This document shows, in pieces, positions 16,477 to 33,151 of a stretch of DNA of 43,051 nt. Origin of the DNA: Truepera sp. (GTDB taxonomy: Bacteria > Deinococcota > Deinococci > Deinococcales > Trueperaceae). Positions within the stretch are counted from its first letter, which is position 1. Each line of letters opens with the position of its first letter. A program made the translations under genes and the position numbers. The notes under the pieces were generated by a model. The model was not told where the DNA came from. It ran no database searches and saw nothing but the letters and a program-made list of their open reading frames with translations. Location: positions 1 through 43,051 of the forward strand of contig JAGXSJ010000042.1 in NCBI GenBank assembly GCA_018333895.1, read 5' to 3'.

Positions 16477-16505
16477 CTGACGCTACCACACATAAGGTGT
16501 ATGCT
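16477..16505 (+). promoter_or_regulatory. vapB promoter with overlapping inverted repeat
   Basis: CTGACG (16477-16482) and TATGCT (16500-16505) are 17 nt apart, and the -10 ends 6 nt before ATG16512, giving a leaderless start. ACAC and GTGT half-sites (about 16488-16500) lie in the spacer and could be the VapB operator. Confidence 0.6.
16480..16485 (-). promoter_or_regulatory. -10 element TAGCGT for the hydrolase-anmK unit, leaderless geometry
   Basis: On the minus strand TAGCGT lies 6 nt upstream of ATG16473, without Shine-Dalgarno. It overlaps the divergent vapB promoter, so VapB binding could affect both directions. Confidence 0.45.
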
Positions 16506-16511
16506 AGGTTT

Positions 16512-16724
16512 ATGGGTTCCACAAGGACCAACATCGTGATTGACGACGAGATGCTAGCCATGGTCATGCGCCGGTACGGCCTGAGCACCAAGACGGAGGC
16601 CGTGGCCCTGGCCCTGAAACGGCTCGCCGGCGAGCCCATGACGCGCGAAGAGGCGCTAGCGATGCGCGGTGCAAAGGCGCTGCAAGGCGTTCCGGAAGAC
16701 ACTCGGCCGCCTTCAGGCGAGTGA
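16512..16724 (+). CDS. vapB: VapB-type antitoxin (ribbon-helix-helix)
   Basis: A 70-residue antitoxin. The start [34 protein letters not shown] is a ribbon-helix-helix DNA-binding domain, and the acidic/Pro tail would contact the toxin. The frame begins at GTG16497, but ATG16512 fits the family and lies 6 nt after a TATGCT -10 box. Its stop overlaps the toxin's GTG start (GTGA at 16721-16724). The antitoxin is intact although its toxin is broken. Confidence 0.85.
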
Positions 16725-16921
16725 AAAGGGTTCTAGTCGACACTTCTGCCTGGGTGGAGTTCGACCGGGCAACCGGCAGCAGCGCCGAGGCCCGCCTGAC
16801 GGCACTGATTGCCTCAGACGGTCCGGTGGCCGTGACGGAACCGGTGATCATGGAAGTGCTGGCTAGGGCTCGTAACGACCAAAGGGAGCGAGACCTGCGG
16901 CGACTCCTCTTGCGCTTCGAA

Positions 16922-16940
16922 ATTACTCGGGCGAAGCCTT
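16922..16940 (+). repeat. 19-bp element inserted in vapC
   Basis: ATTACTCGGGCGAAGCCTT. It is the frameshifting copy; the flanks rejoin to an uninterrupted VapC frame when it is removed. Confidence 0.9.
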
Positions 16941-17113
16941 CTGATCCCTTTCGACGCAACCACCGACTTCGACAGCGCCGTACGTATCTACCGAACCTGC
17001 CGAGCACAAGGGATCACGCCTCGTGGCCTGGTCGACTGCCTGATCGCCAGCGTGGCCATTCGCGCCGAAGCCACGCTCCTGGCCTTCGATCGCGATCTCG
17101 CCGCCATCGCCAC

Positions 17114-17132
17114 AAGGCTTCGCCCGACAATT
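17114..17132 (-). repeat. 19-bp element, inverted copy in the vapC tail
   Basis: On the plus strand AAGGCTTCGCCCGACAATT, the reverse complement of the 19-bp unit with the GT-for-AC variant. It lies in the toxin's last coding part and reads in frame as TRLRPTIV. Confidence 0.85.
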
Positions 17133-17171
17133 GTGATGCATCTGCACCTCGACGAGGCCAGCCTGAGCGCA

Positions 17172-17209
17172 ATTACTCGGGCGAAGCCTTATTACTCGGG
17201 CGAAGCCTT
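17172..17209 (+). repeat. Two tandem 19-bp elements
   Basis: Two exact head-to-tail copies of the unit. Because 19 is not a multiple of three, successive copies are read in successive frames. All three plus-strand frames of the array are free of stops. Confidence 0.92.
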
Positions 17210-17244
17210 TCAAGTGACAGCCCTCAAACAATCTCGCCTCCGAA

Positions 17245-17320
17245 ATTACTCGGGCGAAGCCTTATTACTCGGGCGAAGCCTTATTACTCGGGCGAAGCCT
17301 TATTATTCGGGCGAAGCCTT
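17245..17320 (+). repeat. Four tandem 19-bp elements
   Basis: Units start at 17245, 17264, 17283 and 17302. The first three are exact and the last has one change (ATTATTCGG). A decayed partial unit may follow (17321-17336). The array ends about 40 bp before the 3' end of the convergent helicase gene. Confidence 0.92.
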
Positions 17321-17357
17321 AAACTCGGGGCGATTCAGCAAGAGAGTTTTGTCAGGT

Positions 17358-20087
17358 TCAGGTACGCCCCTTTTTGTCCAGCGCCAACAAGGCCTGCCCA
17401 AGTATCTCCTCCGGCACCCGGATAATCTCCTTGTGCCGCAAGAAGACTAGCTGCACCTGCGGCGTCACGCCGCGCACCGCCTGAATCGCCTGGAGGTAGA
17501 CCGCCAACTGAAAGTGATACTGCTCAGGGCTTACCTCCTGGTCGGTCTTGTAGTCCTCTAGGGTCCACTGCTCGCCCACGCGGTAGAGGCGGTCGATGAT
17601 CCCCTGCCAGACAGTGGTGCCTTGCGGCAACGCCATCGGCAGTTCGGGGTAGTCCTCATCGCGCGCTGCGACAAGCGGGAGCTTAGTGCCGAGCAGGCTC
17701 TGGTAGTTCGTTAGCAATTCCTTAACCTCCTGCAAAAGCTCCTGCTGTTCGTCGTAGGCAAAGGGGAACATCACCTCTTGGGCGCGCAAGTTTTCGATAT
17801 GGACAGGATCTTCGGCGCGCCAGCCCTGGCTGATGGCGTAGTGGACCAGCGTGCCGACGGTAGCGGCGCGGCCGGGGAGCGCTTCACCTTCGTCCGGGTC
17901 GGAGATGGGGAGCGGTTCGTGGATAGCCTCTTTGAAGCGTGAAGGGGAGAAGACGGGCGGATAGGGGTGGGGCTTGAAGGCATCGTCGATATACGGGGCG
18001 GGGGTAAGTTGGTTGTCGGTTAACGGCTGAGAGCTAACAGCTGCCACTGGTTGATAGGGGTGCGTCTGCAACACGAAGTCGGGGCGGTCGTAGGGCTTGG
18101 CGTCGGGGCCTAGCTCCATGGCGGCGAGCACCTTGGCCCAGCCGCCGGGCTTGCCGTTCTTGACACTGCCGGTCATCACCAGCACGTCGCGCGGGCGGCT
18201 GGCAGCGACGTAGAAGAGGCGGTAGCCCTCCTGCTCAGCGCGGGCCTCGATGGCCTCGCGGGCGGCCGCAAAGCCATCTGAGCTTTTGTGATGGAGATGG
18301 CCATCGTCAGGGGTGAGAATTACGCTTTGCGGAGGGTGATAGGTCGTCCGGCCCAGGTCGAACACCCCGACCACCGGCCACTCCAATCCTTTGGCGCGAT
18401 GAACGGTCAGGAGCTTCACTCCCTCGCCGCTTTGCGGCACGTCGCCGGCATCGGCCTGCCGGGCAAGCAGCTCGAGCCGGTCCAGCAAGATGGCCAGGTC
18501 ACCGGGGGGCTGCTCGGCTACGGTGAACAGCAAGGCGTCCACGTTTTCGCGGGCGCGCGAGTCCAAGAACTCCACATAGCGCTTACCGTCGATGAAGGGT
18601 TCGCGGATCAAGAACTTAAGAGCCTCTAGGGGCACGCCCGCCACCTGGGCCTTGATGGCCTCATAGCGGCGATAGACCGCCGGGTGGGCTTTGAGCTGCT
18701 CCAGCGGCTCATCGGCAGCTAGCACGGCATCGGCCTCGGCTAGCGACAGTTGGGCCCAGGGGCTGCGCAGCCAGGCGCCCAGGCTCACACCCTGCGGGTC
18801 GATCCCGACCCGGAGCGCGTGATAAAGATCGCGCAGCTCGAGCCGGTCATAGTAGCCCCGCCCCTGAATGAGCACATACGGCAGCCCGGCTGCTAACAAC
18901 GCCTCCTCCAGCACCCTTAAGCCGTCGTAGCTGCGGGCCAGCACCGCCATGTCGTTAAAGTCGTAGCCGTGCGCGTCGTGTAGAGCCCGCAGCCGCTCGG
19001 CTAACAGCCGCGCCTCCTGCCGCCGCAGATCGGCGATACCGGCTTCGCCCACCACCCAGTGCAGCTCTAGGCGGCCCTGCTTGTCAGCTTGCGGCCCAGC
19101 CGGACTCACCTCGGGGGCCTCTTCCGGGCCAAAGCCCTGGCCGCCCGCTGCCAACGTCTCGGTCAGGCGATTAAGAAAGCGCGTCAGCACCCTGGCATGG
19201 CGCCGCGTCTGCTGCAACGGCGGGAGAACGACTCCGCGCTTAAGCGCCCGGCGGAAGACCTCCACGTCGGCGTTGCGAAAGCCGTAGATCGACTGTTTGG
19301 GGTCGCCCACCACCTCCACGGCTAGGCCGCCCGCCTCAAGCTGCTCGAAGACCTGTCCTTGCAGAGGGTTGACGTCTTGAAACTCGTCAACGAGCACCAG
19401 GCGATAGCGACTGGCTAGGCGGGCTAGCAGCTTGGGCGAGCGGACCATCATCAGGGCGCGCCGCTCCACCTCGCTAGGGGGCAGCAGCGCGGCCCCTAGG
19501 CGCACCGTAAAGCGCGCATAGGCCGCCTCCCAGAGCTTGAGCAGGGCCTGGTTGCGGGGGTCGGCAGCGGCGGCGAAGCGCTCGGTCAGTGAACGTTGCG
19601 AGAATAGCTGGAGCAGTATCTCGGCCTCCGGGCCCAGCAGCGTCCGTGCCGGGTTAAGGCCGTGGCCCGGTTCGGCGGCCAAGAACAGCACCGTCTTTAA
19701 CTCCTCCTCGAACAGCGCCGTAGCCTCCCACTCGCCTAGCACCGTAAAGTCGGGGTCGAGGCTAAGCAGCGGCGCCACTAACCGCAGCGCTTCGATCAGA
19801 AAGCCGTGGATGGTAGTTAGGGTCGCCCCGTCAAGCTCGCGCCGCGCCTCCTCGAAGGCCGGCCGCTCCTCTTCGGTCAGGGTTGCTAGGCCGCCGAGGT
19901 AGCTCCCGTGCTCGAGCAGCTCGTAGAGCGCTGCGCCAACGCGCTGGCGCAGTTCGTCGGCGGCTTTGCGGGTAAAGGTCACCCCGGCGATGCGGCGCAG
20001 AGGGGTCCCCGAGGCGATCAGCTCCAGGTAGCGCAAGACCAGGCTGGTGGTCTTGCCGGTACCGGCGGAGGCGACGCGGACTTTCAT
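17358..20087 (-). CDS. UvrD/RecB-type ATP-dependent helicase-nuclease (AddA-like)
   Basis: A 909-residue SF1 helicase with a C-terminal RecB-type nuclease. The helicase motifs are in order: Walker A ASAGTGKTT (6-14), FTRKAADELRQRV, TIHGFL, DEFQDVNPLQ, GDPKQSIYGFR and LLTVHRAKGLEWPVV. Near the end, WQGIIDRLYR and LEDYKT with QLAVYLQAI supply the metal-binding D...DYK residues of the nuclease. Such proteins process double-strand breaks, usually with a partner (AddB, AdnA or RecC); none is present here. A low-complexity stretch before the nuclease (SSQPLTDNQLTPAP) may be repeat-derived. The last codons approach the 19-bp array. Confidence 0.9.
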   Translation of the reverse strand: MKVRVASAGTGKTTSLVLRYLELIASGTPLRRIAGVTFTRKAADELRQRVGAALYELLEHGSYLGGLATLTEEERPAFEEARRELDGATLTTIHGFLIEALRLVAPLLSLDPDFTVLGEWEATALFEEELKTVLFLAAEPGHGLNPARTLLGPEAEILLQLFSQRSLTERFAAAADPRNQALLKLWEAAYARFTVRLGAALLPPSEVERRALMMVRSPKLLARLASRYRLVLVDEFQDVNPLQGQVFEQLEAGGLAVEVVGDPKQSIYGFRNADVEVFRRALKRGVVLPPLQQTRRHARVLTRFLNRLTETLAAGGQGFGPEEAPEVSPAGPQADKQGRLELHWVVGEAGIADLRRQEARLLAERLRALHDAHGYDFNDMAVLARSYDGLRVLEEALLAAGLPYVLIQGRGYYDRLELRDLYHALRVGIDPQGVSLGAWLRSPWAQLSLAEADAVLAADEPLEQLKAHPAVYRRYEAIKAQVAGVPLEALKFLIREPFIDGKRYVEFLDSRARENVDALLFTVAEQPPGDLAILLDRLELLARQADAGDVPQSGEGVKLLTVHRAKGLEWPVVGVFDLGRTTYHPPQSVILTPDDGHLHHKSSDGFAAAREAIEARAEQEGYRLFYVAASRPRDVLVMTGSVKNGKPGGWAKVLAAMELGPDAKPYDRPDFVLQTHPYQPVAAVSSQPLTDNQLTPAPYIDDAFKPHPYPPVFSPSRFKEAIHEPLPISDPDEGEALPGRAATVGTLVHYAISQGWRAEDPVHIENLRAQEVMFPFAYDEQQELLQEVKELLTNYQSLLGTKLPLVAARDEDYPELPMALPQGTTVWQGIIDRLYRVGEQWTLEDYKTDQEVSPEQYHFQLAVYLQAIQAVRGVTPQVQLVFLRHKEIIRVPEEILGQALLALDKKGRT

Positions 20088-20128
20088 GACTGGATCGGCC
20101 TGACCTCAACCCGCAGGTCGGGGGGCTA

Positions 20129-20149
20129 TCCTGCGAGTAAACCGCAGGA
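20129..20149 (+). repeat. CTGCG hairpin element, AGTAAAC loop
   Basis: Arms TCCTGCG and CGCAGGA around loop AGTAAAC. The reverse complement recurs at 21818-21856, so it is a dispersed family. Confidence 0.8.
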
Positions 20150-20159
20150 CCGGGCACCC

Positions 20160-20215
20160 AAGGCTTCGCCCGGCAATAAGCCCTGCGCACAAGTCGCAGG
20201 GTCGCCCAACCATTC
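20160..20215 (+). repeat. Composite element: inverted 19-bp unit plus 38-bp hairpin unit
   Basis: AAGGCTTCGCCCGGCAAT is followed directly by the 38-bp unit (20178-20215), whose arms CCCTGCG and CGCAGGG flank loop CACAAGT. The tail TCGCCCAACCATTC varies slightly from other copies. Confidence 0.9.
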
Positions 20216-20326
20216 CGTCAACACCGGCACGCCGAAGCATCGATCACCATGCTTTCTGCTCGACTCGCTCCGGGATCTTGGACATGACAACCTTCTACTG
20301 GCGCCAAGTATAACACGAAGGTTAAG

Positions 20327-20350
20327 CCCTTCGGCTTCGCTCAGGACAGG
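20327..20350 (+). repeat. 24-bp direct element (family encoding FDFAQDR-like peptides)
   Basis: CCCTTCGGCTTCGCTCAGG plus ACAGG. Copies lie at 22140-22164 (same strand) and 23473-23496 (opposite strand), both inside the methyltransferase gene. Confidence 0.85.
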
Positions 20351-20377
20351 CCCTACAGCAGCCCCGCCCCCCCTCGG

Positions 20378-20397
20378 TCCCCCCCAAGGTTGGGGGG
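20378..20397. repeat. C/G-run hairpin at the MFS 3' end
   Basis: Arms CCCCCCAA (20380-20387) and TTGGGGGG (20390-20397) around GG, followed by another G run. It is translated as the Pro-rich MFS tail on the minus strand. It may be another repeat family or a barrier to the end of transcription. Confidence 0.55.
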
Positions 20398-20655
20398 ATG
20401 AAAGGGGGGGGGCGGGTAGCGCCTGAATAAGCGCACCATAGCCAGCAGCGCGGCGGCCATCAGCAACGCACCGGCAAAAAAGGGCGCACCGGGGATGCTC
20501 AGCGGAGCTACCGTGGTGAAATAACCGAACAGTCCGGTCGAGATCAGCGGGGCGATCACGGCGCTGAGACTAAGGAGTGAGGTAAGGGAGCCCTGCACCC
20601 GGCCTTGTTCCGAGGGGGGGACCGCCCCAGCTACCAGCCCCTGGATGACTGGAGC

Positions 20656-20714
20656 ATCCTGCGTCCTGCGCACATCCTGCGTCCTGCGCACAAGTCGCAG
20701 GATGTGCGCAGGAC
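20656..20714. repeat. Duplicated CTGCG element with 19-bp inverted arms, inside the MFS gene
   Basis: An 18-bp unit ATCCTGCGTCCTGCGCAC occurs twice in tandem (20656-20673, 20674-20691). The second copy lies in a large hairpin whose 19-nt arms (20663-20681 and 20696-20714) are perfectly complementary. The site coincides with the break in the MFS reading frame. The core resembles the 38-bp hairpin unit. Confidence 0.9.
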
Positions 20715-21670
20715 GCCCAGAGCGGTGAACACAATGACTGCCAGCATCATCCAGCCCTGATAGGCCAAGCCGTAGAGCAAAAATGCCACTGTCGAGATGG
20801 TGAGGCCCAGTAGGACGGCCCGCCGCTCGCCAAGTCGGGGGATAATCAGGCGTAATAAAAAACCTTGTACTAAGACGGCCATCACCCCTACTAAGGCCAG
20901 CGCCAAGCCGTTTTGCAGCTCGAGCCAGCCAAAGCGGTAGGTGGTGTAAAGCACCCAGACGCTCTCCAACCCGCGCTGGGCCAGCCCTAGCAAGACAAAG
21001 GCTACAGCCAGCCCCGCCACGATGGGGTAGATGCGGAGCTGCAATAGGCTTAGCGGGTTGGCCTTGTGCCAGGAAAAGGGGCGGCGCTTATCGGGCGGGA
21101 GCGATTCGGGTAGGATCAGTAGCCCATAGAGCCAGTTCAAGAGCGCCAACGTGGCGGCGGCGTAGAAGGGGAGGCGCGGCGAGATTGCTCCCAAGATCCC
21201 CCCCAGAGCTGGACCGAGGATAAAGCCAAGGCCGAAGGTCGCACCGACTAACCCGAAGTTCTGAGCGCGGTTTTGGGGGGTTGAGATATCGGCGATATAG
21301 GCGTTAACGGTGGTGATGCTGGCCCCCATGACGCCAGAGATTACTCGCGCCACGATAAGCCAGGTTAGATTAGGGGCCAAGGCCAGCAGCAGATAGTTGA
21401 TACCGAGGCCCAAGAGCGCGATGAGGATGACCGGGCGTCGGCCGAAGCGGTCCGAGAGCGAGCCCAGTACCGGAGCAAAGATAAACTGCATCAGTGCGTA
21501 GACCGCCACTAGGAAGCCATAAGTGAAGGCGGCTTGCGCGGCGCCACTGCTGGTTAGGTCGATGACGAGTCGGGGCAAAATGGGGATGATAAGCCCAAGG
21601 CCGATGACATCGAGCAGCAGAGTAATCAGGATAAAGGCCATGCCGGCCCGGTGCTGCCTCATAGAACTCC

Positions 21671-21744
21671 AAGGCTTCGCCCGACAATAAGGCTTCGCCC
21701 GACAATAAGCCCTGCGCACAAGTCGCAGGGTCGCCCGACCATTC
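21671..21744 (+). repeat. Composite element: two 18-bp units plus 38-bp hairpin unit
   Basis: AAGGCTTCGCCCGACAAT occurs at 21671-21688 and 21689-21706, then the 38-bp unit at 21707-21744. It lies 8 nt upstream of the MFS start, between the Shine-Dalgarno and the divergent methyltransferase, so it could affect MFS expression. Confidence 0.92.
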
Positions 21745-21817
21745 AGGACGCTGCCAGCGCTTAAGATACCGCACTTGGCAGGGCTCCCCACAAGGCTTTG
21801 CCCTGAGGCCTGCCCTG

Positions 21818-21856
21818 TCCTGCGGTTTACTCGCATCCTGCGGTTTACTCGCAGGA
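21818..21856 (-). repeat. Duplicated CTGCG element, GTTTACT loop
   Basis: TCCTGCGGTTTACTCGCA occurs twice (21818-21835 and 21836-21853). The second copy completes a hairpin with arms TCCTGCG and CGCAGGA (21836-21856). It is the reverse complement of the 20129 element, and the two lie on opposite sides of the MFS gene. Confidence 0.85.
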
Positions 21857-21882
21857 GAAGTGAAGGGGCTCAGCCCAAAGGG

Positions 21883-21888
21883 TAAAAT
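21883..21888 (+). promoter_or_regulatory. -10 element TAAAAT with leaderless geometry
   Basis: TAAAAT ends 6 nt before GTG21895 of the methyltransferase gene. No Shine-Dalgarno is present. Confidence 0.5.
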
Positions 21889-21894
21889 GCCACG

Positions 21895-23700
21895 GTGGCA
21901 AAGCTAAGCCGAGCGAAAGCCGAACGTAAGGCCCTGGGCGAGTTTTATACCGCCGAGCCGGTAGCGAAGTATCTGGTTGACTGGGCTCTTAGGCAGCCTA
22001 CAGACAGCATCTTAGACCCAAGCTTTGGTGGCGGGGTGTTCTTGCAGGCGGCAGCGGAGCGGCTACGGCAGTTGGGTGGCAGTATTGACAACATCCACGG
22101 TGTCGAAATAGCTGAAGCGGCATATAACCGGGTGGCCCTCTCCTTCGATTTCGCTCAGGACAGGACTATTGGTGAGGCGCGCCTCCATCGCGCCGACTTT
22201 TTGGCGCTCACACCTGGCCAATTGGGGCTATTCGACAGCGTGGTGGGCAATCCCCCCTTTATCCGCGCCCCGCGCCTGAGCGCTGCTAGCCGGTCGCTGG
22301 CTCTGAGCCAGGCGGCAGCGCAGGGTGTGCGGCTCAGTAAGCGCTCGAGCGTCTGGGCGCCCTTCTTGGTCCACGCCAGCGCCTTTGTCAAGCCTGGCGG
22401 GCGCATGGCCATGGTGGTGCCAGCCGAGCTAGGACACGCCGTCTATGCCAGAGCGGTCATCGAGCACTTAACCCAAAGCTTCGCCCAGGTCACGCTGCTC
22501 AGCCCTCGCGAGCGCCTCTTTCCCGAGCTGGATCAGGATACTTTGCTGCTGTTGGCAGAAGGTCGAACATCACTCCCTCGGCAAGCCCTGCCCCATAAGG
22601 GTTGGGACGGCGCCTCGCTTCGCTCGGGTCGCGGGGTGGTGGTTGGTCAGTGGTTGGATCAAGCGCTAACCGTGGCGAGTGGCGAGTGGCGAGTGGCTAT
22701 CAGTAAGCCCTGCGCACAAGTCGCAGGGTCGCCTGACGATTACTTGCCAGCTAACAGCTCCTCTCGGCTGGTCGGCGCCTTGCTGCCGGAGCGTGTCTTG
22801 GCCCTGTACCAGGAGCTAGCCGTGCAGCCGCGCGTCAGGCGGCTGGGCGCGCTGGCCGAGGTCGGTATCGGCTACGTCACCGGTGCTAATCGCTTCTTTC
22901 ATCTCAGCCCCGCTGAGGTGGCGCGATGGGAGCTGCCGCCGGAGGCGCTGCGTCCGGCAGTGTGGCGGAGCCGTGCGCTAGTGGGCTTGCGGCTGAGCCG
23001 CCAGGACTGGCAAAGGGCGTGTGCTAGCGGTACGGCGGGTTACCTGCTGCAGGTAAACGGCGATCCGCTGAAGCCCTGCGCACAAGTCGCAGGGTCGCCC
23101 GACAATTCAGAAGCGGTCTGGCGCTACCTGGCCCACGGCGAGGCAAGCGGCGTGGCGCAGGGTTATAAGGCGCGCGAGCGGCGCTGCTGGTACCAGGTCG
23201 GCAACGTCAAGGTGCCCGACCTGCTGCTGGCCGCGATGGGCTTACGGCTAGCGCTGGTGACCAATGAGGCTAACGTGACGGTGCCGAATACGCTGCACGT
23301 GGTGCGGCTCTACCCTCACGCCCAGACGACGGCCTTGGACCTAAGCCTAGGGTGGCAGAGCACACTGACGCGCCTTAGTCTGGAAGTAGAGGGGCATGCG
23401 CTAGGCGGCGGGTTGCTCAAGCTCGAGCCCAGTGAAGCTAGGCGGGTGCTCGTAGCGTTGCCGGATCCGAGCCCTGTCCTGAGCGAAGCCGAAGGGGAGG
23501 CGAGAATGACTTTTGATGAGCTCGAGCCGGAGTTGGATCAACTCCTCCGGCAGCGCCGCTTTAGCGAGGCCAGGGAGCTGGCCGACCAGGCGATACTGCA
23601 AGGCGGACTCGGCCTAACGCAGCGAGAGTGCCGCTTGCTGCGCGAGGGCTACCGCCTGCTGTGTGAGCGTCGGCTCAAACGCGCCGCAGCTTTTAGCTAA
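21895..23700 (+). CDS. N6-adenine DNA methyltransferase (Eco57I/TaqI-like) carrying several repeat-derived peptides
   Basis: A 601-residue SAM-dependent methyltransferase, with GEFYTAEPVAKYLVDWAL, motif I DPSFGGGVFL (41-50), VEIAE, and the catalytic NPPF (119-122) that marks amino-methylation of adenine. The C-terminal half has the target-recognition look of type IIG/orphan enzymes (GIGYVTGANRFF, CWYQVGNVKVPDLL). No restriction nuclease is adjacent. Four segments come from dispersed repeats: FDFAQDR (84-90), KPCAQVAGSPD twice (271-281 and 393-403), and SPVLSEAEGE (526-535). All keep the frame. Whether the enzyme still works is unclear because two insertions lie in the recognition region. Confidence 0.85.
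   Translation: MAKLSRAKAERKALGEFYTAEPVAKYLVDWALRQPTDSILDPSFGGGVFLQAAAERLRQLGGSIDNIHGVEIAEAAYNRVALSFDFAQDRTIGEARLHRADFLALTPGQLGLFDSVVGNPPFIRAPRLSAASRSLALSQAAAQGVRLSKRSSVWAPFLVHASAFVKPGGRMAMVVPAELGHAVYARAVIEHLTQSFAQVTLLSPRERLFPELDQDTLLLLAEGRTSLPRQALPHKGWDGASLRSGRGVVVGQWLDQALTVASGEWRVAISKPCAQVAGSPDDYLPANSSSRLVGALLPERVLALYQELAVQPRVRRLGALAEVGIGYVTGANRFFHLSPAEVARWELPPEALRPAVWRSRALVGLRLSRQDWQRACASGTAGYLLQVNGDPLKPCAQVAGSPDNSEAVWRYLAHGEASGVAQGYKARERRCWYQVGNVKVPDLLLAAMGLRLALVTNEANVTVPNTLHVVRLYPHAQTTALDLSLGWQSTLTRLSLEVEGHALGGGLLKLEPSEARRVLVALPDPSPVLSEAEGEARMTFDELEPELDQLLRQRRFSEARELADQAILQGGLGLTQRECRLLREGYRLLCERRLKRAAAFS
22140..22164 (+). repeat. 24-bp element in frame in the methyltransferase
   Basis: TCCTTCGATTTCGCTCAGG plus ACAGG, read as SFDFAQDR at residues 83-90, between motif I and the NPPF motif. 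Confidence 0.8.
22672..22699 (+). repeat. 7-bp tandem repeat, four copies
   Basis: GTGGCGA three times then GTGGCTA, directly before a 38-bp element in the methyltransferase gene. A 7-bp unit makes copy-number change frameshift the gene, as in phase-variable methyltransferases. Confidence 0.8.
22705..22742 (+). repeat. 38-bp hairpin element in frame in the methyltransferase
   Basis: Arms CCCTGCG and CGCAGGG, loop CACAAGT, slightly decayed tail. It is read as KPCAQVAGSPD, starting exactly at codon 271. Confidence 0.9.
23071..23108 (+). repeat. 38-bp hairpin element, second in-frame copy in the methyltransferase
   Basis: A full consensus copy with tail TCGCCCGACAATTC. It is read in the same phase as the first copy (KPCAQVAGSPDNS, from codon 393). 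Confidence 0.92.
23473..23496 (-). repeat. 24-bp element, inverted copy in the methyltransferase
   Basis: CCTGTCCTGAGCGAAGCCGA plus AGGG is the reverse complement of the 20327 copy. On the gene strand it is read as SPVLSEAEGE. Confidence 0.85.
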
Positions 23701-23710
23701 AGGAAGCGGG

Positions 23711-23748
23711 GAATTGTCGGGCGACCCTGCGACTTGTGCGCAGGGCTT
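23711..23748 (-). repeat. 38-bp hairpin element, inverted exact copy after the methyltransferase
   Basis: Exact reverse complement of the copy at 23071-23108. It begins 11 nt after the methyltransferase stop. The hairpin could also act on the 3' end of either convergent transcript. Confidence 0.92.
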
Positions 23749-23811
23749 GTGGGACCCCTACAACCCACATCCCACTACCCACATCCGCAAGGCTAAGGGC
23801 TAAGCCCCCAT

Positions 23812-23847
23812 CCTCTCCAATCAAGGCTTCGCCCAACAATTGAGAGG
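23812..23847. terminator. Possible terminator hairpin with a 19-bp element in its loop
   Basis: CCTCTC (23812-23817) pairs with GAGAGG (23842-23847). The loop is occupied by the element AAGGCTTCGCCCAACAATT (23823-23841). The site lies between the convergent methyltransferase and kinase genes. There is no T-run, so intrinsic termination is doubtful. Confidence 0.4.
23823..23841 (-). repeat. 19-bp element, inverted copy (AACAATT variant)
   Basis: AAGGCTTCGCCCAACAATT; identical copies lie at 28872-28890 and 32869-32887. Confidence 0.9.
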
Positions 23848-23859
23848 GACGGTGCCGGC

Positions 23860-24762
23860 TCAGGCGAGCTGCCGGGCCAGCAGCAGCGCTCCTTCAGCGG
23901 GGCTATAGTGCGCCGGTTGGAAACGCTCCCTAAAGCGTGCCGGCGCCAGCGCCAGCAGCTCCTCGGCCAAGGCTAAGGCCAGGTTGCCGGTCAGCGAGAA
24001 GGGCAGCGGCGGGGTGTTGCGCTCGAGCGAGCGCAGGTGCTGCACTAGTTGTGACAGCGCGCGCTGCTTGAGCCGCCGCGCCACCTCATCGCCGGCTCCA
24101 GCGGCCTCCAACACGCGCGGCGCCCAGCTAGCAAAGTCGCCCGGGCCAGCGGTGCGGACCCGCTCGAGCAGATCGTCTGCGGTCGGCCCCCACACTCCCA
24201 ACACCGCATCGCTAAGGGCAGTAGCCGGGCCGCGGCCGTCCCAGTGCTGCAAGGTCGCTCGCACCGCCTCGCGCCCCAGCCAGGCCCCGCTACCTTCGTC
24301 GCCGACCTCGAAGCCCCACCCCCCCACGCGATAGCGTTGCCCCGCACTATCGACCGCGTAGGCGATGCTGCCGGTGCCAACTGCTAGCAGCGCCCCCGCC
24401 TCCTGCGCCAGCGCCCCGACTAGCGCCACGTGAATGTCGGGCTCGAGCCTAATCGCTGTGAAGGGGTGCGCCACGCTCAAGAACCGCTCGCGGTCGGCAG
24501 CGCGGCCCACCCCGGCCAAGCCCAGGCAGGCGTACACCGGCGCGTACCCCTCGGTAAGCCCTGCGCACAAGTCGCAGGGTCGCCCGACAATTCCGGCTCT
24601 CCGTAAGGCCTCAAGGATGGCGCGCCAGGCCGCCTCAGCACCGACGGTGCGCGGATTGGCTGGTCCCCCCTCGGCCCGGCCCAGCACCGCGCCATCGTGC
24701 CCTGCCACCACCACCCGGCAGCCGCTTCCCCCGCCATCGACACCGACAAAGAGCCTGTTCAT
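23860..24762 (-). CDS. BadF/BadG-type amino-sugar kinase (N-acetylglucosamine or MurNAc kinase-like)
   Basis: A 300-residue ASKHA-fold kinase. The phosphate-binding loop FVGVDGGGSGCRVVV is at the N-terminus, then PANPRTVG, CLGLAGVGR, VALVGALAQEAGALLAVGTGSIAY and GGWGFEVGDEGSGAWLGR, the pattern of GlcNAc/MurNAc kinases. Residues 57-69 (GIVGRPCDLCAGL) are encoded by an inverted 38-bp element, an in-frame addition between helix one and the CLGLAG strand. The start abuts the stop of dppC, so the kinase is the last gene of the dppABC-kinase operon. Peptide uptake plus an amino-sugar kinase suggests import of cell-wall fragments. Substrate is inferred. Confidence 0.85.
   Translation of the reverse strand: MNRLFVGVDGGGSGCRVVVAGHDGAVLGRAEGGPANPRTVGAEAAWRAILEALRRAGIVGRPCDLCAGLTEGYAPVYACLGLAGVGRAADRERFLSVAHPFTAIRLEPDIHVALVGALAQEAGALLAVGTGSIAYAVDSAGQRYRVGGWGFEVGDEGSGAWLGREAVRATLQHWDGRGPATALSDAVLGVWGPTADDLLERVRTAGPGDFASWAPRVLEAAGAGDEVARRLKQRALSQLVQHLRSLERNTPPLPFSLTGNLALALAEELLALAPARFRERFQPAHYSPAEGALLLARQLA
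24556..24593 (+). repeat. 38-bp hairpin element in frame (antisense) in the amino-sugar kinase
   Basis: Consensus copy. Relative to the gene it is read backwards, giving GIVGRPCDLCAGL rather than KPCAQVAGSPD, so both strands of the element are open. Confidence 0.92.
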
Positions 24763-25851
24763 TTAAGCCAACTTGGTGTCGGCGGCGTCGCGCAAGGCGT
24801 CGCCGACAAAGTTAAAAGCCAAGACCGAGATGACGATCAGCAGCCCAGGGGTAAGCAGCCAGGGGTGGAGGCGCAAGCTCTCGAAGCTCTGCGCGTCGCT
24901 AAGCAACAGCCCCCAGCTCGCCATCGGCTCCCTAATACCCAGCCCCAGGAAGCTCAGCGCGCTCTCGCCCAGAATATAGCCGGGCAGCGCCAAGGTGGCG
25001 GCGATCACCAGATACGAGGTCAGATTGGGCATGACGTGGCGCAGAATAATGCGCAGATCGCTCGAGCCCAGCGCCTTGGCAGCCTGGACGAATTCGATCT
25101 CGCGGGCCGAGAGCACCTGACCGCGGATTACCCGCGCTAGACCGGCCCAGCCGATCAGCGCCAGCACCGCTATAATCCCCACGTAGATCCAGGTCGAAGG
25201 CCACCTTGGCGGGATGATCGAGGCTAGTGCCAGTAGGATCGGCAGGCGTGGGAACGACAGCAGCACCTCGATCAGCCGCTGCAAGGCGGTATCGACCCAG
25301 CCGCCGTAGTAGCCGCTGATGCCACCGATCAAGATACCGATGGAGAACGAGAGCAGGATACCGATTAAGCCCACCGTCAGCGAGACTTGCGACCCCACCA
25401 GAGTGCGCGAGAACAGGCAGCGCCCGAAGCGGTCGGTGCCGAGTGGGAAGAAGCGGCCCTCGCTGACGCCGAACAGCCGCAGGTCGGTGGTGAACACGCC
25501 CAGCAGGCGATAGCGCTCGCCGCGCACCAGGAAGCGGATCGGCTGGGGGTTGCGCTGGTCCTCGACGTAGAGGTTGCGAAAGGTTACCGGGTCGCGCTCG
25601 CGCACCATCGGATAGGTAAAGGGGCGCATCAGCCGCCCTTCGTGCAGCAGCAAGATCCGCTGCGGGGGCTGAAGAGGATATTGGCGGTGTTGGGTGGCGA
25701 TGTTATAGGGGGCGAGAAAACCGGCGAACAGCGCCATGAGGTAAAGAGCAAGCAGGATCACCCCCCCTGCGATGCCGACTTTAGAGCGCTTAAACCGCCG
25801 CCAGGCCAGCGCCAGCGGGCTCAGCGACTCGCGCTGCCGCACCTTAGTCAT
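24763..25851 (-). CDS. Peptide ABC transporter permease (DppC/OppC-like)
   Basis: A 362-residue permease, longer than typical DppC (about 300). The N-terminal helix is KVGIAGGVILLALYLMALFAGFLAPY. A periplasmic loop of about 90 residues precedes FPLGTDRFGRCLFSRTLVGSQVSL, the OppC signature. The EAA-type loop AKALGSSDLRIILRHVMPNL is near residue 260-280, and the end GDALRDAADTKL is typical. Its start overlaps dppB by 8 nt. It pairs with DppB to form the channel. No ATPase genes (dppD/F) are in the window. Confidence 0.93.
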   Translation of the reverse strand: MTKVRQRESLSPLALAWRRFKRSKVGIAGGVILLALYLMALFAGFLAPYNIATQHRQYPLQPPQRILLLHEGRLMRPFTYPMVRERDPVTFRNLYVEDQRNPQPIRFLVRGERYRLLGVFTTDLRLFGVSEGRFFPLGTDRFGRCLFSRTLVGSQVSLTVGLIGILLSFSIGILIGGISGYYGGWVDTALQRLIEVLLSFPRLPILLALASIIPPRWPSTWIYVGIIAVLALIGWAGLARVIRGQVLSAREIEFVQAAKALGSSDLRIILRHVMPNLTSYLVIAATLALPGYILGESALSFLGLGIREPMASWGLLLSDAQSFESLRLHPWLLTPGLLIVISVLAFNFVGDALRDAADTKLA

Positions 25852-26815
25852 AGCGGATCCGTGGATCGACCCAGGCCAGTGCCAGGTCGGCCAGCAGGTT
25901 GCCGAGCATCAAGAACAGGCTGGAGAACAGCAGCATCGTCATAGCCACGAACTGATCTTGGGCCATCAGCGATTGAAAGAGTAGCGGCCCGATGGTCGGC
26001 AGATTGAGCACGATAGAGACAATGATGGTGCCGTTAATCAGCTCCGGCAGAGACAAGCCCGCCAGCGATACTAACGGGTTAATAGCGTTGCGCACGGCAT
26101 GACGGTAGGTCACTGTCCGCTCGCGCAACCCCTTGGCGCGGGCGGTGCGCACGAAATCGGCATTTAGCACATCAAGCAGATTAGCGCGCATCTGCCGCAT
26201 CAAGACGGCGATAGTGGAAGTTCCAACAGCCAAGATCGGAATCCATAGGTGGTTTAGCAGGTCGATAAGGCGGGCCCATGACCAGGGGGCACCGATAAAC
26301 TGCGGGCTATTCAGCCCGCCCACGTTGGTCCCGCCCAGGTTCAGCACCAGCGCCACCAGCAATAGCGCCACCAGAAAGTCGGGCGTAGCCAAGCCGATGT
26401 AGCCAAAGAAGCTGGCCACAGCGTCGCTGAAGCCATTGCGGCGGGTAGCGACATAGATGCCTAAAGGGATAGCCACCAGCCACGAGAACAGCATGGTCAG
26501 GCCGGCAATCAGTACCGTCCAGCCCAGCAGCTCGCCGATAATCGAGGTTACCGGGCGGTTGGCGAAGAACGAAAAGCCGAAGTCGCCGCGGGTAATAATC
26601 CCTGTTACCCAGCGCCAATACTGTTCCCAGACCGGTCGATCCAGGCCCAATTGGGCTTCCAGGCGGGCTACCGTCTCAGGGCTGAAGCGGGGGTCTTCGA
26701 GATAGCGATCGGTAAAGCGGCCGGGCTGGAGCTGAATCACGCCAAACGACACGATTGAGACCAGCACCAGCGTAGGGAAGACGATCATGATCCGGCGGAT
26801 AGTAAAGCTCAGCAT
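25844..26815 (-). CDS. Peptide ABC transporter permease (DppB/OppB-like)
   Basis: A 323-residue permease starting with IRRIMIVFPTLVLVSIVSFGVIQLQPG, the usual DppB N-terminal helix. LEAQLGLDRPVWEQYWRWV and GDFGFSF follow, then six helices. The EAA-type loop appears as TARAKGLRERTVTYRHAVRNA near residue 225. The protein ends in LADLALAWVDPRIRYD, the standard C-terminus. It is 53 nt downstream of the binding-protein gene across a hairpin, and overlaps dppC. Confidence 0.93.
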   Translation of the reverse strand: MLSFTIRRIMIVFPTLVLVSIVSFGVIQLQPGRFTDRYLEDPRFSPETVARLEAQLGLDRPVWEQYWRWVTGIITRGDFGFSFFANRPVTSIIGELLGWTVLIAGLTMLFSWLVAIPLGIYVATRRNGFSDAVASFFGYIGLATPDFLVALLLVALVLNLGGTNVGGLNSPQFIGAPWSWARLIDLLNHLWIPILAVGTSTIAVLMRQMRANLLDVLNADFVRTARAKGLRERTVTYRHAVRNAINPLVSLAGLSLPELINGTIIVSIVLNLPTIGPLLFQSLMAQDQFVAMTMLLFSSLFLMLGNLLADLALAWVDPRIRYD

Positions 26816-26836
26816 GACGATAGATCCGTTAGATAA

Positions 26837-26862
26837 GGGGCTTAAGAGGTGTCTTAAGCCCC
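26837..26862 (-). terminator. Intercistronic hairpin between dppA and dppB
   Basis: 11-nt perfect arms GGGGCTTAAGA and TCTTAAGCCCC around a 4-nt loop. On the minus strand it is followed by TTATCTAA rather than a clean T-run, so it is more likely a 3'-end stabiliser or partial attenuator. The same arrangement occurs in the sugar importer operon. Confidence 0.75.
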
Positions 26863-26868
26863 AAAGAC

Positions 26869-28635
26869 TTACTCGCTAATGAAGAACAGCGGCACCGGGT
26901 TGTAGCCAGGGATAACTCCAAGGCTGAAGATGTAGTTGGCGACTCTATCGTGGACCGCACCGATGCTATTGGGCTTGGCGATCACGATCACCGGCAGGAA
27001 CTCAGCTCCTAGGCGTTGCCACTCCTGATAGGCTGCGACCCGCGCTTCATGGTCCACCATCCGCGAGCCTTGGTCGAAGATCTCCCAGATCCGCCGCTCC
27101 CAGTCTGCCATAGCGTCAAAGTTAGGCTGGCCGCCAGGCTCGGCCGGTTGGGTGGCGCGGTGCCAGTAGTAGAGCGCGCCGCCCGGCTGCCAGATCGGCT
27201 TGCGCAGTTCGGGATCGGGCTGATCGCCGAAGCCGATCATGATGGCTTCAAAGTCGCCAGCTAGGCCGGTAGCCAGCAGTTGAGCCACCGGGACCCCGCG
27301 CAGGTGAACCCTGACACCCGCCTGGGCAAAGTCGCTCTGGATGATAGTGGCCAGATCGGTCCAGACCCGTGAGTCGGAGCCGTAAGTGAGCGAAAACTCC
27401 AGCTCGCGGGTAGGGGAGATGTTGCGCACACCGTCGTTATTAGTATCCACCAGACCCAAAGCCTCGAGCCCTGCGCCGGCAGCTTCGAGGTCGAACATCC
27501 GCATCAGGCCGGTGACATCTTCGTGGAAGGTGACATCGGCCGGGGCAGTGCCCATGCCGGGAAGCGTAGCTAGGCCGTTATAGACATCTTCGATGATGCG
27601 CAGCCGATCGACAGCATGCTCCATGGCGCGCCGGAACTCGACGTTGGCGAAGAGCTGGGCTAGCTCGGGGTCAGCCGCGTTAAAGTTGAAGGCCAGGTGG
27701 GGCGTAGCACCGAACAGCGCTACGCTGGCGATCACTCGGAAAGGTTCGCCCGCCAGTTCGCGGCTCTTAAAGTCGGGGAACTGCGCGCCACCGATATTGA
27801 GCTGATCGACATTTCCAGCCAGGAATTGGGCCGCTTGCGCCTCGGTGCCGCGGACGATCAAGTACTCGAGCATGTCTAGGTAGGGCAGCGGTGTCCCGGC
27901 AGCATCGACCATCCAGTAGTTGGGATTGCGCACCAGCCGCACTAGCTGCCCCGGCACATACTCGGCCATCATGAACGGCCCGGTGCCGACGATGTCGGTC
28001 AGGGGGCCGTCGGTCGGCCAGGCGTTGTTAATATCCGCCGGTTGAGCGCCACCTTCGACGCTCAGATGGAGCAGCTTATGCTTGGGCATGATCGGGAAGG
28101 AGCGGATCTGTAGGATAAAGACCGGCGAAGGCACCGGCAGCGTCATGCGCACCGTGTGCTCGTCAAGGGCTGCAAAGGTGACTTTGCGCTCTACGCCGTC
28201 TACGTTGAAGGTGAACTGCGCCGCGTCGCCAGCTCGAGCCTCGGGGTTGGTGACGATCTGCTCAAAGGTAAAGACCACATCATCGGCGCTAAACGGTACG
28301 CCGTCGTGCCAGGTAACGCCCTGGCGCAGATGGAAGGTGTAGACCAGGCCGTCCTCACTGACTTCCCAAGAAGCGGCCAGCGCCGGGATGATCTCGTAGG
28401 TCGCCAGGTTGAACGTAACCAGCGGATCGAACATCTGATGGGTCAGGGTCTGGATCAGCGCACTGATCTCGCCGTAGATGAAAAATCGCGGCGGCGTGTC
28501 GCCGAGCACCAGGCGCAGCGTGCCGCCGGGGGTGCCGGGCACGATACCGAGCGCGCTGTAGTCAGGGACGACCTTAACCTGTGCCAGAGCGGTCATTAGC
28601 AGCGCGGCGAGTATAGTCAAAGCTAGCTTTCTCAT
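26869..28635 (-). CDS. Peptide ABC transporter substrate-binding protein (family 5, DppA-like)
   Basis: A 588-residue extracytoplasmic binding protein. The signal peptide (LTILAALLMTALAQ) is cleaved near residue 19. The mature part has GTPGGTLRLVLGD, FDPLVTFN, PALAASWEVSEDGLVYTFHLRQGVTWHDG (the family-5 signature), SADDVVFTFE and a C-terminal lobe with RRAMEHAVDR. It would bind oligopeptides, or here perhaps muropeptides, judging by the amino-sugar kinase in the same operon. AGGAGGT lies 4 nt from ATG28635. The operon is served by a promoter at 28663-28691. Confidence 0.93.
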   Translation of the reverse strand: MRKLALTILAALLMTALAQVKVVPDYSALGIVPGTPGGTLRLVLGDTPPRFFIYGEISALIQTLTHQMFDPLVTFNLATYEIIPALAASWEVSEDGLVYTFHLRQGVTWHDGVPFSADDVVFTFEQIVTNPEARAGDAAQFTFNVDGVERKVTFAALDEHTVRMTLPVPSPVFILQIRSFPIMPKHKLLHLSVEGGAQPADINNAWPTDGPLTDIVGTGPFMMAEYVPGQLVRLVRNPNYWMVDAAGTPLPYLDMLEYLIVRGTEAQAAQFLAGNVDQLNIGGAQFPDFKSRELAGEPFRVIASVALFGATPHLAFNFNAADPELAQLFANVEFRRAMEHAVDRLRIIEDVYNGLATLPGMGTAPADVTFHEDVTGLMRMFDLEAAGAGLEALGLVDTNNDGVRNISPTRELEFSLTYGSDSRVWTDLATIIQSDFAQAGVRVHLRGVPVAQLLATGLAGDFEAIMIGFGDQPDPELRKPIWQPGGALYYWHRATQPAEPGGQPNFDAMADWERRIWEIFDQGSRMVDHEARVAAYQEWQRLGAEFLPVIVIAKPNSIGAVHDRVANYIFSLGVIPGYNPVPLFFISE

Positions 28636-28662
28636 GCCTACCTCCTAAGGATCTCAAGCTTT

Positions 28663-28691
28663 AGGATATACCTATTCAAGACCACCTGCAA
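28663..28691 (-). promoter_or_regulatory. Promoter of the dpp operon
   Basis: On the minus strand TTGCAG (28686-28691) and TATCCT (28663-28668) are 17 nt apart. The leader to the dppA ATG is about 20 nt and contains a strong Shine-Dalgarno. Confidence 0.65.
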
Positions 28692-28976
28692 GTATCGCAG
28701 GTATCGCACTAGAAATCTTAATAACCATTTAAGGGCGCAGGCGAGCGGAGCAAGTAGGCTTAGAGTCACAAGAACGCGGTCAGTTAGCCTAACCGCCAGG
28801 GTCGGCGAGCACCGCTTATACCGGCGTCTGTATCGAGGTTCAAGTAGGGGTCAGTTGAGGGCGCGATTCTCAAGGCTTCGCCCAACAATTCTGTCCCTGC
28901 GATACCATCACCCTACGCGACCTCCTCCCGGCTGACGTTTTGTGAAGATCGCTGGATTAGCGCATCTTGCGCCACT
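28692..28976. other. Intergenic region between dppA and the heme genes
   Basis: About 285 bases with no recognisable gene or RNA. The only structured item seen is a 19-bp element copy at 28872-28890. No clear terminator for the heme operon was found. Confidence 0.6.
28872..28890 (-). repeat. 19-bp element, inverted copy (AACAATT variant)
   Basis: AAGGCTTCGCCCAACAATT in the intergenic space, 86 nt after the oxidase stop. Confidence 0.9.
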
Positions 28977-30380
28977 TCAAGAGTTGGCTGGCCTGATCGC
29001 TGTGGCAATGGCTCGGGTAACCCGCTGGGCGTCGCGCACGCAGTCGTTGAGGCCGACGCCGTAGTAGGCGTTGCCGGTAAGGTAGAGGCCCGGCAGCGCC
29101 TGCGTGGCCGTCATGATACGCGCTACCCGTGCGCTGTGCCCCACCAGGTACTGCGGGATCCCCTGGGGCCAGGTGACCTGATGCACCAGCTCCGGCGCTT
29201 GGGTAAGGCCGAGGCTTAGCCGCAGGTCGTGTTGAACGATTCGCAGCGCCTCGGAGTCGTCGATGGTCACGAAGTCCGGATCGAAGACGCCGCCTCCGAT
29301 GACCCTTAGCAACACCTTGCCGGGCGGGGCCTGGGTGGGGAAGAGGCTAGATGTCCAGAGGCACCCCAGGATCTGCTGGCCCTCGCCGGGGACGACGAGG
29401 TAGCCGAAGCCGTTAAGCGGATGCGGCACGTCCTGGCGATTAAAACCTAGCCCCAGCACCCTAACCCCAGCGTAGGGGATAGCCGCTAGCTCGGCGGCGG
29501 CCTCCGGGAGGAGCGGCGCTAACAGGTCGGCGCTCACGAAGGCCGGAGTAGCCAGCACCACCGCGCTTGCCTGGCACTGTTCGCCCGAGGCCAGAGTGAG
29601 GGTGTAGGTGCCCGTGTCGCAGCGCCCGCGCTGCGCGTAGTCGCAGCGCTGAAGCCCCACCACCGCCGCGCCGGTGCGGACCCGCTGCCCTAGCTGTTCG
29701 GCCAGAGCACGCGTGAGGCGCGCTATGCCGCCGTGCTTGAAGCTGGTTAAGCGCCCGCCGGGGCCGGCCGGCCCGCCAGTGCCCTGGCGGCGCTTGAGCA
29801 CGGTGGCGAGCAGGGCACGAACCAGACTGCCGTAATCATCTTCGAGCCGGCGCAGCCGCGGGAAAAGCGCCGCCAGGCTGATGGCCTTGGCGTCGCCTGC
29901 GGTAATACCTAAGACCATGGCGCGCATAAACACCTCGGCGAACTCCGCGCCGACCCGCCGTTGGGCAAACTCATAGACGGTCTCGTCGACACCGGGCGGG
30001 CGTTTGGGGGCAAAAGGTTCACAGAGTAGCCGCGCTTTGGCCCTGCCCGAGACGAGCCGGGTACGCAAGAAAGCCATCGGTGAGGTGGGAAGAGCTTGCA
30101 GTGTGCCGTGGTGATAGAGGAAGCGGTGCTGAGCTAGCTCGCCAGCGACCGCTAGCTCGTCCGCTAGGCCGAGCGCCTTAGCCAGCTCAAGCGTCTCGGG
30201 GACGTTGGTGAGAAAGCCGTTGGGCCCCCGGTCGATGGTGTAGCCCTGGAGCTGATCGCTCTGGGTAATGCCGCCCGCTGCGGCCTCACGCTCAAAGACG
30301 ATCACCTTGCGGCCTTGTCGGTTGAGGTAGTAGGCGGTAGCCAGCCCGGCGATCCCCCCGCCGACGATCGCTACGGTCAC
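28977..30380 (-). CDS. hemY: Protoporphyrinogen oxidase, HemY type
   Basis: A 467-residue FAD flavoenzyme that takes six electrons from protoporphyrinogen IX, probably at the membrane face. The dinucleotide-binding motif VAIVGGGIAGLATAYYL is at the N-terminus, followed by EREAAAGG and TIDRGPNGFL. The C-terminal FAD site is LYLTGNAYYGVGLNDCVRDA. GTG30380 starts 1 nt after the hemN stop; the longer frame lies inside hemN. An insertion near residue 245 (QRCDYAQRGRCD) is encoded by a CTGCG hairpin element. HemF and HemN alongside favour the protoporphyrin-dependent route over coproporphyrin oxidation. It is the last gene of the cluster. Confidence 0.9.
   Translation of the reverse strand: MTVAIVGGGIAGLATAYYLNRQGRKVIVFEREAAAGGITQSDQLQGYTIDRGPNGFLTNVPETLELAKALGLADELAVAGELAQHRFLYHHGTLQALPTSPMAFLRTRLVSGRAKARLLCEPFAPKRPPGVDETVYEFAQRRVGAEFAEVFMRAMVLGITAGDAKAISLAALFPRLRRLEDDYGSLVRALLATVLKRRQGTGGPAGPGGRLTSFKHGGIARLTRALAEQLGQRVRTGAAVVGLQRCDYAQRGRCDTGTYTLTLASGEQCQASAVVLATPAFVSADLLAPLLPEAAAELAAIPYAGVRVLGLGFNRQDVPHPLNGFGYLVVPGEGQQILGCLWTSSLFPTQAPPGKVLLRVIGGGVFDPDFVTIDDSEALRIVQHDLRLSLGLTQAPELVHQVTWPQGIPQYLVGHSARVARIMTATQALPGLYLTGNAYYGVGLNDCVRDAQRVTRAIATAIRPANS
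29628..29649. repeat. CTGCG hairpin element in frame in the oxidase gene
   Basis: Arms GCGCTGCG and CGCAGCGC around loop CGTAGT. An adjacent half-copy GTCGCAGCGC lies at 29616-29625. A related copy lies upstream of hemE (34479-34498). Confidence 0.75.
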
Positions 30381-30381
30381 C

Positions 30382-31800: not shown

Positions 31801-31829
31801 AAAATTCTCTCGCCTGCTCGAGCCCTGCC

Positions 31830-32729: not shown

Positions 32730-33151
32730 GGACTCTCCTCGATCAGAGTGAGCGGGAGCACGGTGGCGTAGGTCTCAAAGTCCTTGTCGGTCGTCAGGAT
32801 CGGCAGCTCGTGGTTGATCGCCTGGGCGCAGATCAGGAAGTCCACCGCGCTCCCCTGAATGCCCCCTCAAGGCTTCGCCCAACAATTGCGACAGAGGTTG
32901 TAGCATTGGGCTGCCAGAACGTGATCTCGAGTTGTGGCGAGGAGGTCCGGCAGTCCGGCCAGCGCCTCCCGCAGGTGCTCAAATTGGCTCTGCTCGCCAA
33001 TGCCCGAGAGGAGCTCTTGGCGGATGATGCCGAGCAGCTGCACCCTGCCTGTCCGCAGGTAGCGCTCGAGCGCGAGGATCTGCCAGCTACCTCGCGGCGC
33101 CTTGCGGCGCAAGAAGAGCGACCAGACCGAGGTGTCGACGATGACCTTCAC
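32726..33151 (-). pseudogene. vapC: VapC-type PIN toxin interrupted by a repeat-borne stop
   Basis: The N-terminal part is a normal PIN domain (KVIVDTSVWSLFL with the first Asp; IIRQELLSGI with the Glu), to AAQCYNLCR. A 19-bp element (32869-32887) then adds NCWAKP and a TGA at 32867-32869. Beyond that stop the same frame continues with GIQGSAVDFLICAQAINHE and ILTTDKDF, the missing third acidic region, to TGA at 32726. The whole is 142 codons in one phase. The stop removes the last 40% of the domain, so the toxin should be inactive. Read-through would restore it. Confidence 0.9.
32869..32887 (-). repeat. 19-bp element inserted in vapC
   Basis: AAGGCTTCGCCCAACAATT on the plus strand. On the gene strand it is read as NCWAKP and, with the next bases, gives the TGA stop. 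Confidence 0.92.

Follow-up and report, generated by a model that had tools for sequence, protein, structure and literature searches.

The question raised by this locus is what the short, hairpin-bearing repeats are that recur along a 43,051-nt contig of a Truepera sp. genome (GCA_018333895.1, JAGXSJ010000042.1), and how they came to be there. This whole stretch, here called the window, makes up contig C42 in a draft, metagenome-type assembly of 2.84 Mb (178 contigs, 98% complete, 8% contamination). The original prediction, made from the letters of the window, described a 19-bp unit and a 38-bp form of it opened by a hairpin, both lying within 20129-24593, and compared them to REP or MITE families. 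Both repeats exist, but their sizes are 18 and 36 bp. This follows from the tandem arrays, in which the units recur with a period of 18 or 36 bp; the flanking A (or T, on the opposite strand) comes from the target, and the spelling given for the 38-bp form has in fact 37 letters.

The plain unit, U (ATTGTCGGGCGAAGCCTT; by parts, 5'-ATTGTCG-GGCGAAGCC-TT), carries a tiny GGC-GAA-GCC hairpin toward its 3' side. In the longer unit, H (5'-ATTGTCGGGCGA-CCCTGCGACTTGTGCGCAGGG-CTT-3'), a 21-bp hairpin with a 7-bp stem (CCCTGCG-ACTTGTG-CGCAGGG) replaces 3 bp (AGC) of U. Both start with ATTGTCG or ATGGTTG and end with CTT, and U alone has a weak fold (-1.5 kcal/mol, z -0.5). There is also a genuine 19-bp variant, U19 (ATTACTCGGGCGAAGCCTT), at 16922 and 17172-17320 of the window, in which the bases ahead of the hairpin are CTCG, those of U18 being GTCG. 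The set of units and hairpin that was first recognized stands and has to be extended, as it also takes in CCTGCG hairpins whose loops differ (20129-20149, 20682-20702, and 21818-21856). Several loops occur (ACTTGTG, AGTAAAC, AGCACC, AGTACC, and AATGCT), and such hairpins are found alone, within U (which gives H), within one another, and within a 145-bp repeat.

All six long copies reported earlier were recovered (0 to 2 changes in 37 nt; chance 0.00), and for the plain unit, of which more than a dozen had been claimed, we found 14 matches with up to 3 changes (chance 0.03). Both orientations are present, as had been noted, and the two composites exist with bounds of 20160-20213 and 21671-21742 rather than 20160-20215 and 21671-21744. 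The family spans 16922-32886 in the window, wider than first given (Table 1). The view of these repeats as nonautonomous, dispersed, modular, and palindromic, with REP-type behavior and no helper in the window, holds. At 16500-17320, a VapB-like antitoxin frame is followed by a PIN-domain (VapC-like) gene with a +1 shift at U19, and the protein of the major facilitator superfamily (MFS) transporter gene resumes in another frame (APVIQGLVAGAVPPSEQGRVQG) past the nested hairpins at 20657-20715.

Table 1. Units, related hairpins, and host genes in the window, in order of position
Feature	Position	Strand	Context
U19	16922..16940	+	PIN-domain (VapC-like) gene; reading frame shifted
U18	17114..17131	-	PIN-domain gene also hit by U19 at 16922; 3' of CACA
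U19 x2, tandem	17172..17209	+	3' of CGCA
U19 x4, tandem	17245..17320	+	3' of CGAA
Free hairpin TCCTGCGAGTAAACCGCAGGA, related module	20129..20149	.	
U18, plain (ATTGCCGGGCGAAGCCTT)	20160..20177	-	3' member of H+U array
H36, variant ATGGTT	20178..20213	-	3' of CGGA; joined to U18 at 20160-20177
Nested CCTGCG hairpins, core 20682-20702	20657..20715	.	MFS gene frame broken
U18 x2, tandem, 18-bp spacing	21671..21706	-	Rest of H+U+U array
H36, variant ATGGTC	21707..21742	-	3' of CTGA; heads H+U+U array just upstream of MFS gene
Hairpin TCCTGCGGTTTACTCGCAGGA holding a second 18-bp self-copy (CGCA/TCCTGCGGTTTACTCGCA/GGA)	21818..21856	.	
Host gene, Eco57I-type N6 DNA methylase	21895..23700	+	Open across two H36 insertions
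H36, in frame (KPCAQVAGSPDD)	22705..22740	-	Inside Eco57I-type N6-methylase gene
H36, in frame (KPCAQVAGSPDN)	23071..23106	-	Eco57I-type N6-methylase gene; 3' of CTGA
H36	23713..23748	+	Intergenic gap after N6-methylase gene
U18, variant ATTGTT	23823..23840	-	Intergenic; 3' of CTCA
Host gene, BadF/BadG/BcrA/BcrD ATPase family (sugar-kinase-like)	23860..24762	-	Open across one H36
H36, in frame (IVGRPCDLCAGL)	24556..24591	-	BadF/BcrAD-family kinase gene; 3' of CGGA
U18, variant ATTGTT	28872..28889	-	3' of CAGA
U18, variant ATTGTT	32869..32886	-	3' of CGCA

The family is dispersed through this genome and is confined to it. The 27-nt core of H has 16 exact copies, all identical, and there are no copies with 1 to 3 changes. 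U matches with up to 2 changes number 72 and lie, with the other units, over dozens of contigs, so the repeats are not a peculiarity of one contig. CCTGCG-N-CGCAGG hairpins occur 214 times genome-wide, compared with 4 for the reversed control pattern; a chance product of GC-rich sequence was rejected because reversed-pattern controls gave only 0 to 4. The stricter pattern TCCTGCG-N5..8-CGCAGGA is found 168 times here, compared with 0 to 2 apiece in the 110 other genomes of the phylum, none of which holds more than 2 copies of U. No copies were found in the 38 relatives or the viral contigs that were searched, and a widely distributed element was dismissed when a scan of 84,980 GTDB species returned a single match, a chance one in an ABC-transporter gene. 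Genomes of the family that bear RAYT genes were also considered as carriers and rejected, as one with several RAYTs (G002) is without such hairpins. The repeats match no Rfam family and no tRNA was found; these results, together with copies in both orientations and without spacers, speak against CRISPR, attC, and tRNA or noncoding RNA genes. Neither outcome that was to refute the original prediction was thus obtained, as copies are spread beyond this contig and an Rfam match is absent. Further short repeats are present in the genome, e.g., strings of AAGTATTCGAGTA and ATCACTCTCGCTTCGCTCGGGTCA (L117 and L069).

A comparison of empty and filled sites, which the original prediction had proposed, gave the exact size of an insertion. 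The 145-bp repeat (AGCGGTTTTCACAAATACTGAG ... GATACCTGCTA, with inner arms GCAGGTATCATCT/AGATGATACCTGC and 1 or 2 CCTGCG hairpins) has at least 29 copies, including those at L066 3840-4110 and L081 3330-3500. Twenty-six copies are empty and read CACAAATACTGA/GTCGCC (that is, CTGA/GTCG), compared with CACAAATACTGA-ATTGTCGGGCGAAGCCTT-GTCGCC in one filled copy (L081), to which exactly 18 bp has been added. The hairpin in this repeat behaves in the same manner, with GCCTA/GGACGTC becoming GCCTA-TCCTGCGGTTTACTCGCA-GGACGTC (18 bp; strand opposite to the printout). Proteins report the same quantum. In a MalZ-type glucosidase, H36+U18 accounts for exactly 18 residues that are absent from 13 of 17 family homologues at that place, and also from PDB homologues. 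Four homologues have CGGA at the empty site, and therefore the tetranucleotide belongs to the target. One U18 adds 6 residues beyond the homologues in PabBC (aminodeoxychorismate synthase/lyase) and again in a lipase (alpha/beta hydrolase); DnaN has exactly 6 residues more than its best PDB match (4trt) at its U18, and a 21-bp hairpin gives D-cysteine desulfhydrase a net gain of 6 residues. The units thus insert as 18 nt or multiples of 18 nt, with no target bases duplicated. Some nested hairpin insertions are of odd size, 27 or 14 nt rather than 18 (L125 and L121).

The target is equally well defined. In about 0.54 Mb of stretches picked for holding copies, which gives array statistics rather than genome-wide fractions, CNNA stands directly 5' of the element in 49 of 58 distinct arrays, against a background of 5.2%. 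The middle positions favor G, positions -5 to -8 are uninformative, and position +1 is G in 38 of the 58. Not one of the 58 arrays is flanked by a direct repeat of 4 to 9 bp, and U and H lack both terminal inverted repeats and target duplications; the MITE part of the earlier assignment is not supported, and a MITE with such repeats and duplications was rejected as a candidate. We take the mobility of the units and their insertion rule as shown. Order within arrays is fixed too, as in each of the nine mixed arrays H is nearer to CNNA and the plain U comes last, at the 3' end. Orientation, compared with GC skew as a gauge of bias toward the lagging-strand template, agrees with the local sign in 19 of 49 arrays. 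Position -2 of the target is A or C in 8 of 11 U19 arrays compared with G or T in 37 of 47 U18 arrays (P = 0.002; a few of the target contexts compared are related), a difference that is suggestive of pairing between guide and target.

Variant letters are often common to neighboring H and U units of an array, which indicates that some copies arose by local duplication. Could the whole family have spread without a transposase, by template switching, slippage, or microhomology repair at replication hairpins, with the arrays growing by slippage? The local distribution of variant letters would fit, as would the odd lengths of some nested insertions and the fact that free hairpins join where three target bases (GGA) complete the stem. 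We nevertheless consider this unlikely. Slippage needs a local template. It is not expected to respect a fixed four-base motif outside which the sequence is random, to add exactly 18 bp at dozens of sites that are unlinked and lie in either orientation, to leave an empty site that matches to the base, or to give an amplification private to one genome.

Insertion into genes is common. Recognized conserved genes hold at least 19 of 60 arrays, and all 19 are multiples of 3 bp and free of stops, compared with 12 arrays that are not multiples of 3 bp among the remaining 41 (hypergeometric by hand, approximately 0.006). The in-frame hosts within the window are the N6-methylase gene (two places) and the BadF-type kinase gene. 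Others encode MalZ, PabBC, lycopene cyclase, DnaN, thiamine pyrophosphokinase, a Na/Pi cotransporter, an MFS transporter, an LptA/LptD_N-domain protein, an alpha/beta hydrolase, another methylase, a calcium P-type ATPase with four KASPDN units, and a TamB-like protein of 3339 residues with several arrays. The dnaN gene (L042 3-1256, minus strand) holds two U-type 18-mers, the second being U-like and following CAGA, as well as nested hairpins that add about 30 residues and a further 13-residue insertion, all of them in frame. The lengths of 18, 36, and 54 bp are multiples of three and the frames used have no stops, so that 6, 12, or 18 residues are added, which is often tolerated. The exact insertion quantum, the CNNA rule, and these in-frame insertions had been missed in the first reading, as had the RAYT genes elsewhere in the genome. 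Two other loci are of note. An IS701-family transposase fragment (L083 10802-11356) carries two in-frame KASPDH units, with similar variants clustering on contig C113, and mnmG (gidA) and rsmG (gidB) form one open frame (L123 1-1482) with a 20-bp hairpin at the junction (852-871).

It might be argued that the insertions are retained for a function, as linker peptides, transcription-level hairpins, or protein-binding sites. The H cores are identical genome-wide, which could reflect constraint, and many copies are intergenic or near gene ends. However, the same DNA encodes at least four unrelated peptides (KASPDN, LSGEAL, IVGRSL, and CRAKP) in unrelated enzymes, indicating that the peptide is not the conserved thing. 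The process breaks genes as well, as seen in the frameshifts caused by the 19-bp copy at 16922 in the PIN-domain gene and by the nested hairpins in the MFS gene, and no relative has kept the family. Retention for function thus seems improbable.

How then would such small units move? The Y1 HUH single-strand transposases of the IS200/IS605 kind put hairpin-folding DNA beside a fixed tetranucleotide without duplication. Site choice by the IS200/IS605 enzymes depends on pairing with a guide that precedes the hairpin on its 5' side, and TnpA_REP cleaves single-stranded DNA at CT or CA beside REP hairpins (PMC8266576). On balance, we favor the interpretation that U and H are minimal nonautonomous elements whose folded single strands are moved in trans by an enzyme of this kind; Y1 chemistry is likely. 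An HUH enzyme, either RAYT (TnpA_REP) or IS200/IS605 TnpA, would cut and join the folded strand. Entry is right 3' of C(G)(G)A and brings in 18 nt or some multiple of it, with the target bases neither doubled nor lost. Related free hairpins go in as another 18 nt. The 4-nt stretch 5' of the hairpin (GTCG or GTTG; GTAG in REPs) would act as the guide that picks the target. New copies or local duplicates may form on the CNNA side of residents, which would yield arrays of the H..H..U type, and the spread would presumably be selfish.

No transposase gene was seen within or adjoining a copy of U or H, and no U or H was seen to flank a RAYT. The search for a REP-associated helper that had been suggested yielded RAYT genes on contigs C37, C16, and C63, and there is a complete IS200/IS605 TnpA-TnpB pair on C110. 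The C37 RAYT (L064 1414-2112, minus strand) has a linker lengthened by a 15-bp tandem expansion (GRPDAGG). Four TCCTGC..GCAGGA hairpins lie within 210 bp upstream of this gene (L064 2180-2383), the only such cluster in 538 kb. The C63 RAYT (L063 1400-2060, minus strand) has one internal TAG and lies between GTAG-GGTGCGC..GCGCACC repeats, and this is a classical REP locus that has apparently decayed. Against a simple assignment, the RAYTs of this genome carry, in or beside their genes, conventional GTAG-tagged REPs of different sequence (GTAGGGGCGACCCCACGTGGTCGCCC near those on C16 and C37). GTAG ahead of TCCTGCG is found only within the 145-bp repeat, and U and H are without it.

Specifically, the helper could be the TnpA on C110 and not a RAYT, since its TnpA-TnpB pair is complete and the IS200/IS605 family is in the habit of inserting 3' of a short fixed sequence with no duplication. 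The hairpins of U and H have no obvious match to the ends of the C110 element, though, and the sole helper-like gene with adjoining TCCTGC hairpins is the C37 RAYT, so that we give this assignment a low probability. An RNA-mediated route, in which a reverse transcriptase would turn transcripts of the elements back into DNA, can also be imagined, as the genome has one in a group II intron maturase on contig C3, and RNA intermediates have reportedly been proposed for the cyanobacterial SDRs. We regard it as very improbable, because an intron-like structure and an A-tail are both lacking, insertion does not depend on a homing site downstream, and the CNNA rule is better matched by single-strand DNA transposition.

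The closest kinds of element are the cyanobacterial SDRs, the REPs, and the RPEs of Rickettsia. The SDRs of Nostoc and its relatives (Elhai et al. 2008, cited in PMC3116915), which are reportedly 21 to 27 nt long, are likewise hairpin-forming mobile repeats of about 20 nt that nest in themselves and in miniature transposons and belong to one lineage; the likeness is one of description rather than of sequence comparison, and U has 18 nt. To our knowledge, neither a fixed CNNA target without duplication nor a set of in-frame gene insertions has been reported for SDRs. The REP comparison made in the original prediction stands as to palindrome size and copy number. Both are palindromes of about 20 to 40 nt in high copy number (here, 214 CCTGCG hairpins, 16 H, and 72 U) with single-strand hairpins, and the genome has RAYT genes, one with four related hairpins upstream. 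It falls short in that U and H lack a GTAG or CGTC tag, the smallest unit is 18 nt, and REPs are mostly extragenic whereas many copies of U and H are in genes. Rickettsia RPEs are palindromic repeats of 105 to 146 bp found in frame in genes (PMC2229807), and intragenic GTAG and CGTC repeats are known, each with its fixed tag (PMC3733652). Like the RPEs, U and H occur in frame in many conserved genes, including those for DNA replication and repair, but they differ from all of these in their size of 18 or 36 bp, in lacking a tag (no CGTC), and in their base-exact target rule. The IS200/IS605 elements share insertion 3' of a short fixed sequence without target duplication, hairpins, and an orientation fixed relative to the target, whereas their normal members have two well-separated hairpin ends and usually a transposase gene; U and H have a single hairpin in 18 to 36 nt and no coding capacity. 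U and H thus work like REP or IS200-type DNA and yet fail the defining tags of REPs and CGTC repeats and the terminal repeats and target duplications of MITEs, and they cannot be filed there. New features are a size of 18 nt, an insertion quantum that is exact, a CNNA rule with its empty sites, a modular design in which a long hairpin replaces a mini-hairpin, and the large number of insertions borne by core genes.

U and H are among the smallest mobile DNA elements recorded. Possibly, they are the smallest mobile DNA yet described: a single-hairpin element that goes in 3' of CNNA by exact steps of 18 nt, has a guide-like stretch in which variants alter the target preference, and colonizes essential genes in frame by virtue of its length and lack of stops, as in the sliding-clamp gene with its two copies and nested hairpins. 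For mobile DNA near its minimum size, where spread has so far been suspected rather than explained, they supply an insertion rule that is exact to the base and comes with both empty and filled sites. One system here joins REP-like palindromes, the target choice of IS200-type elements, and in-gene palindromes of the Rickettsia kind, and the idea of pairing between guide and target becomes testable by short oligonucleotides. Very short mobile units can add 6 to 30 residues to core proteins, by a route that is usually invisible in annotation.
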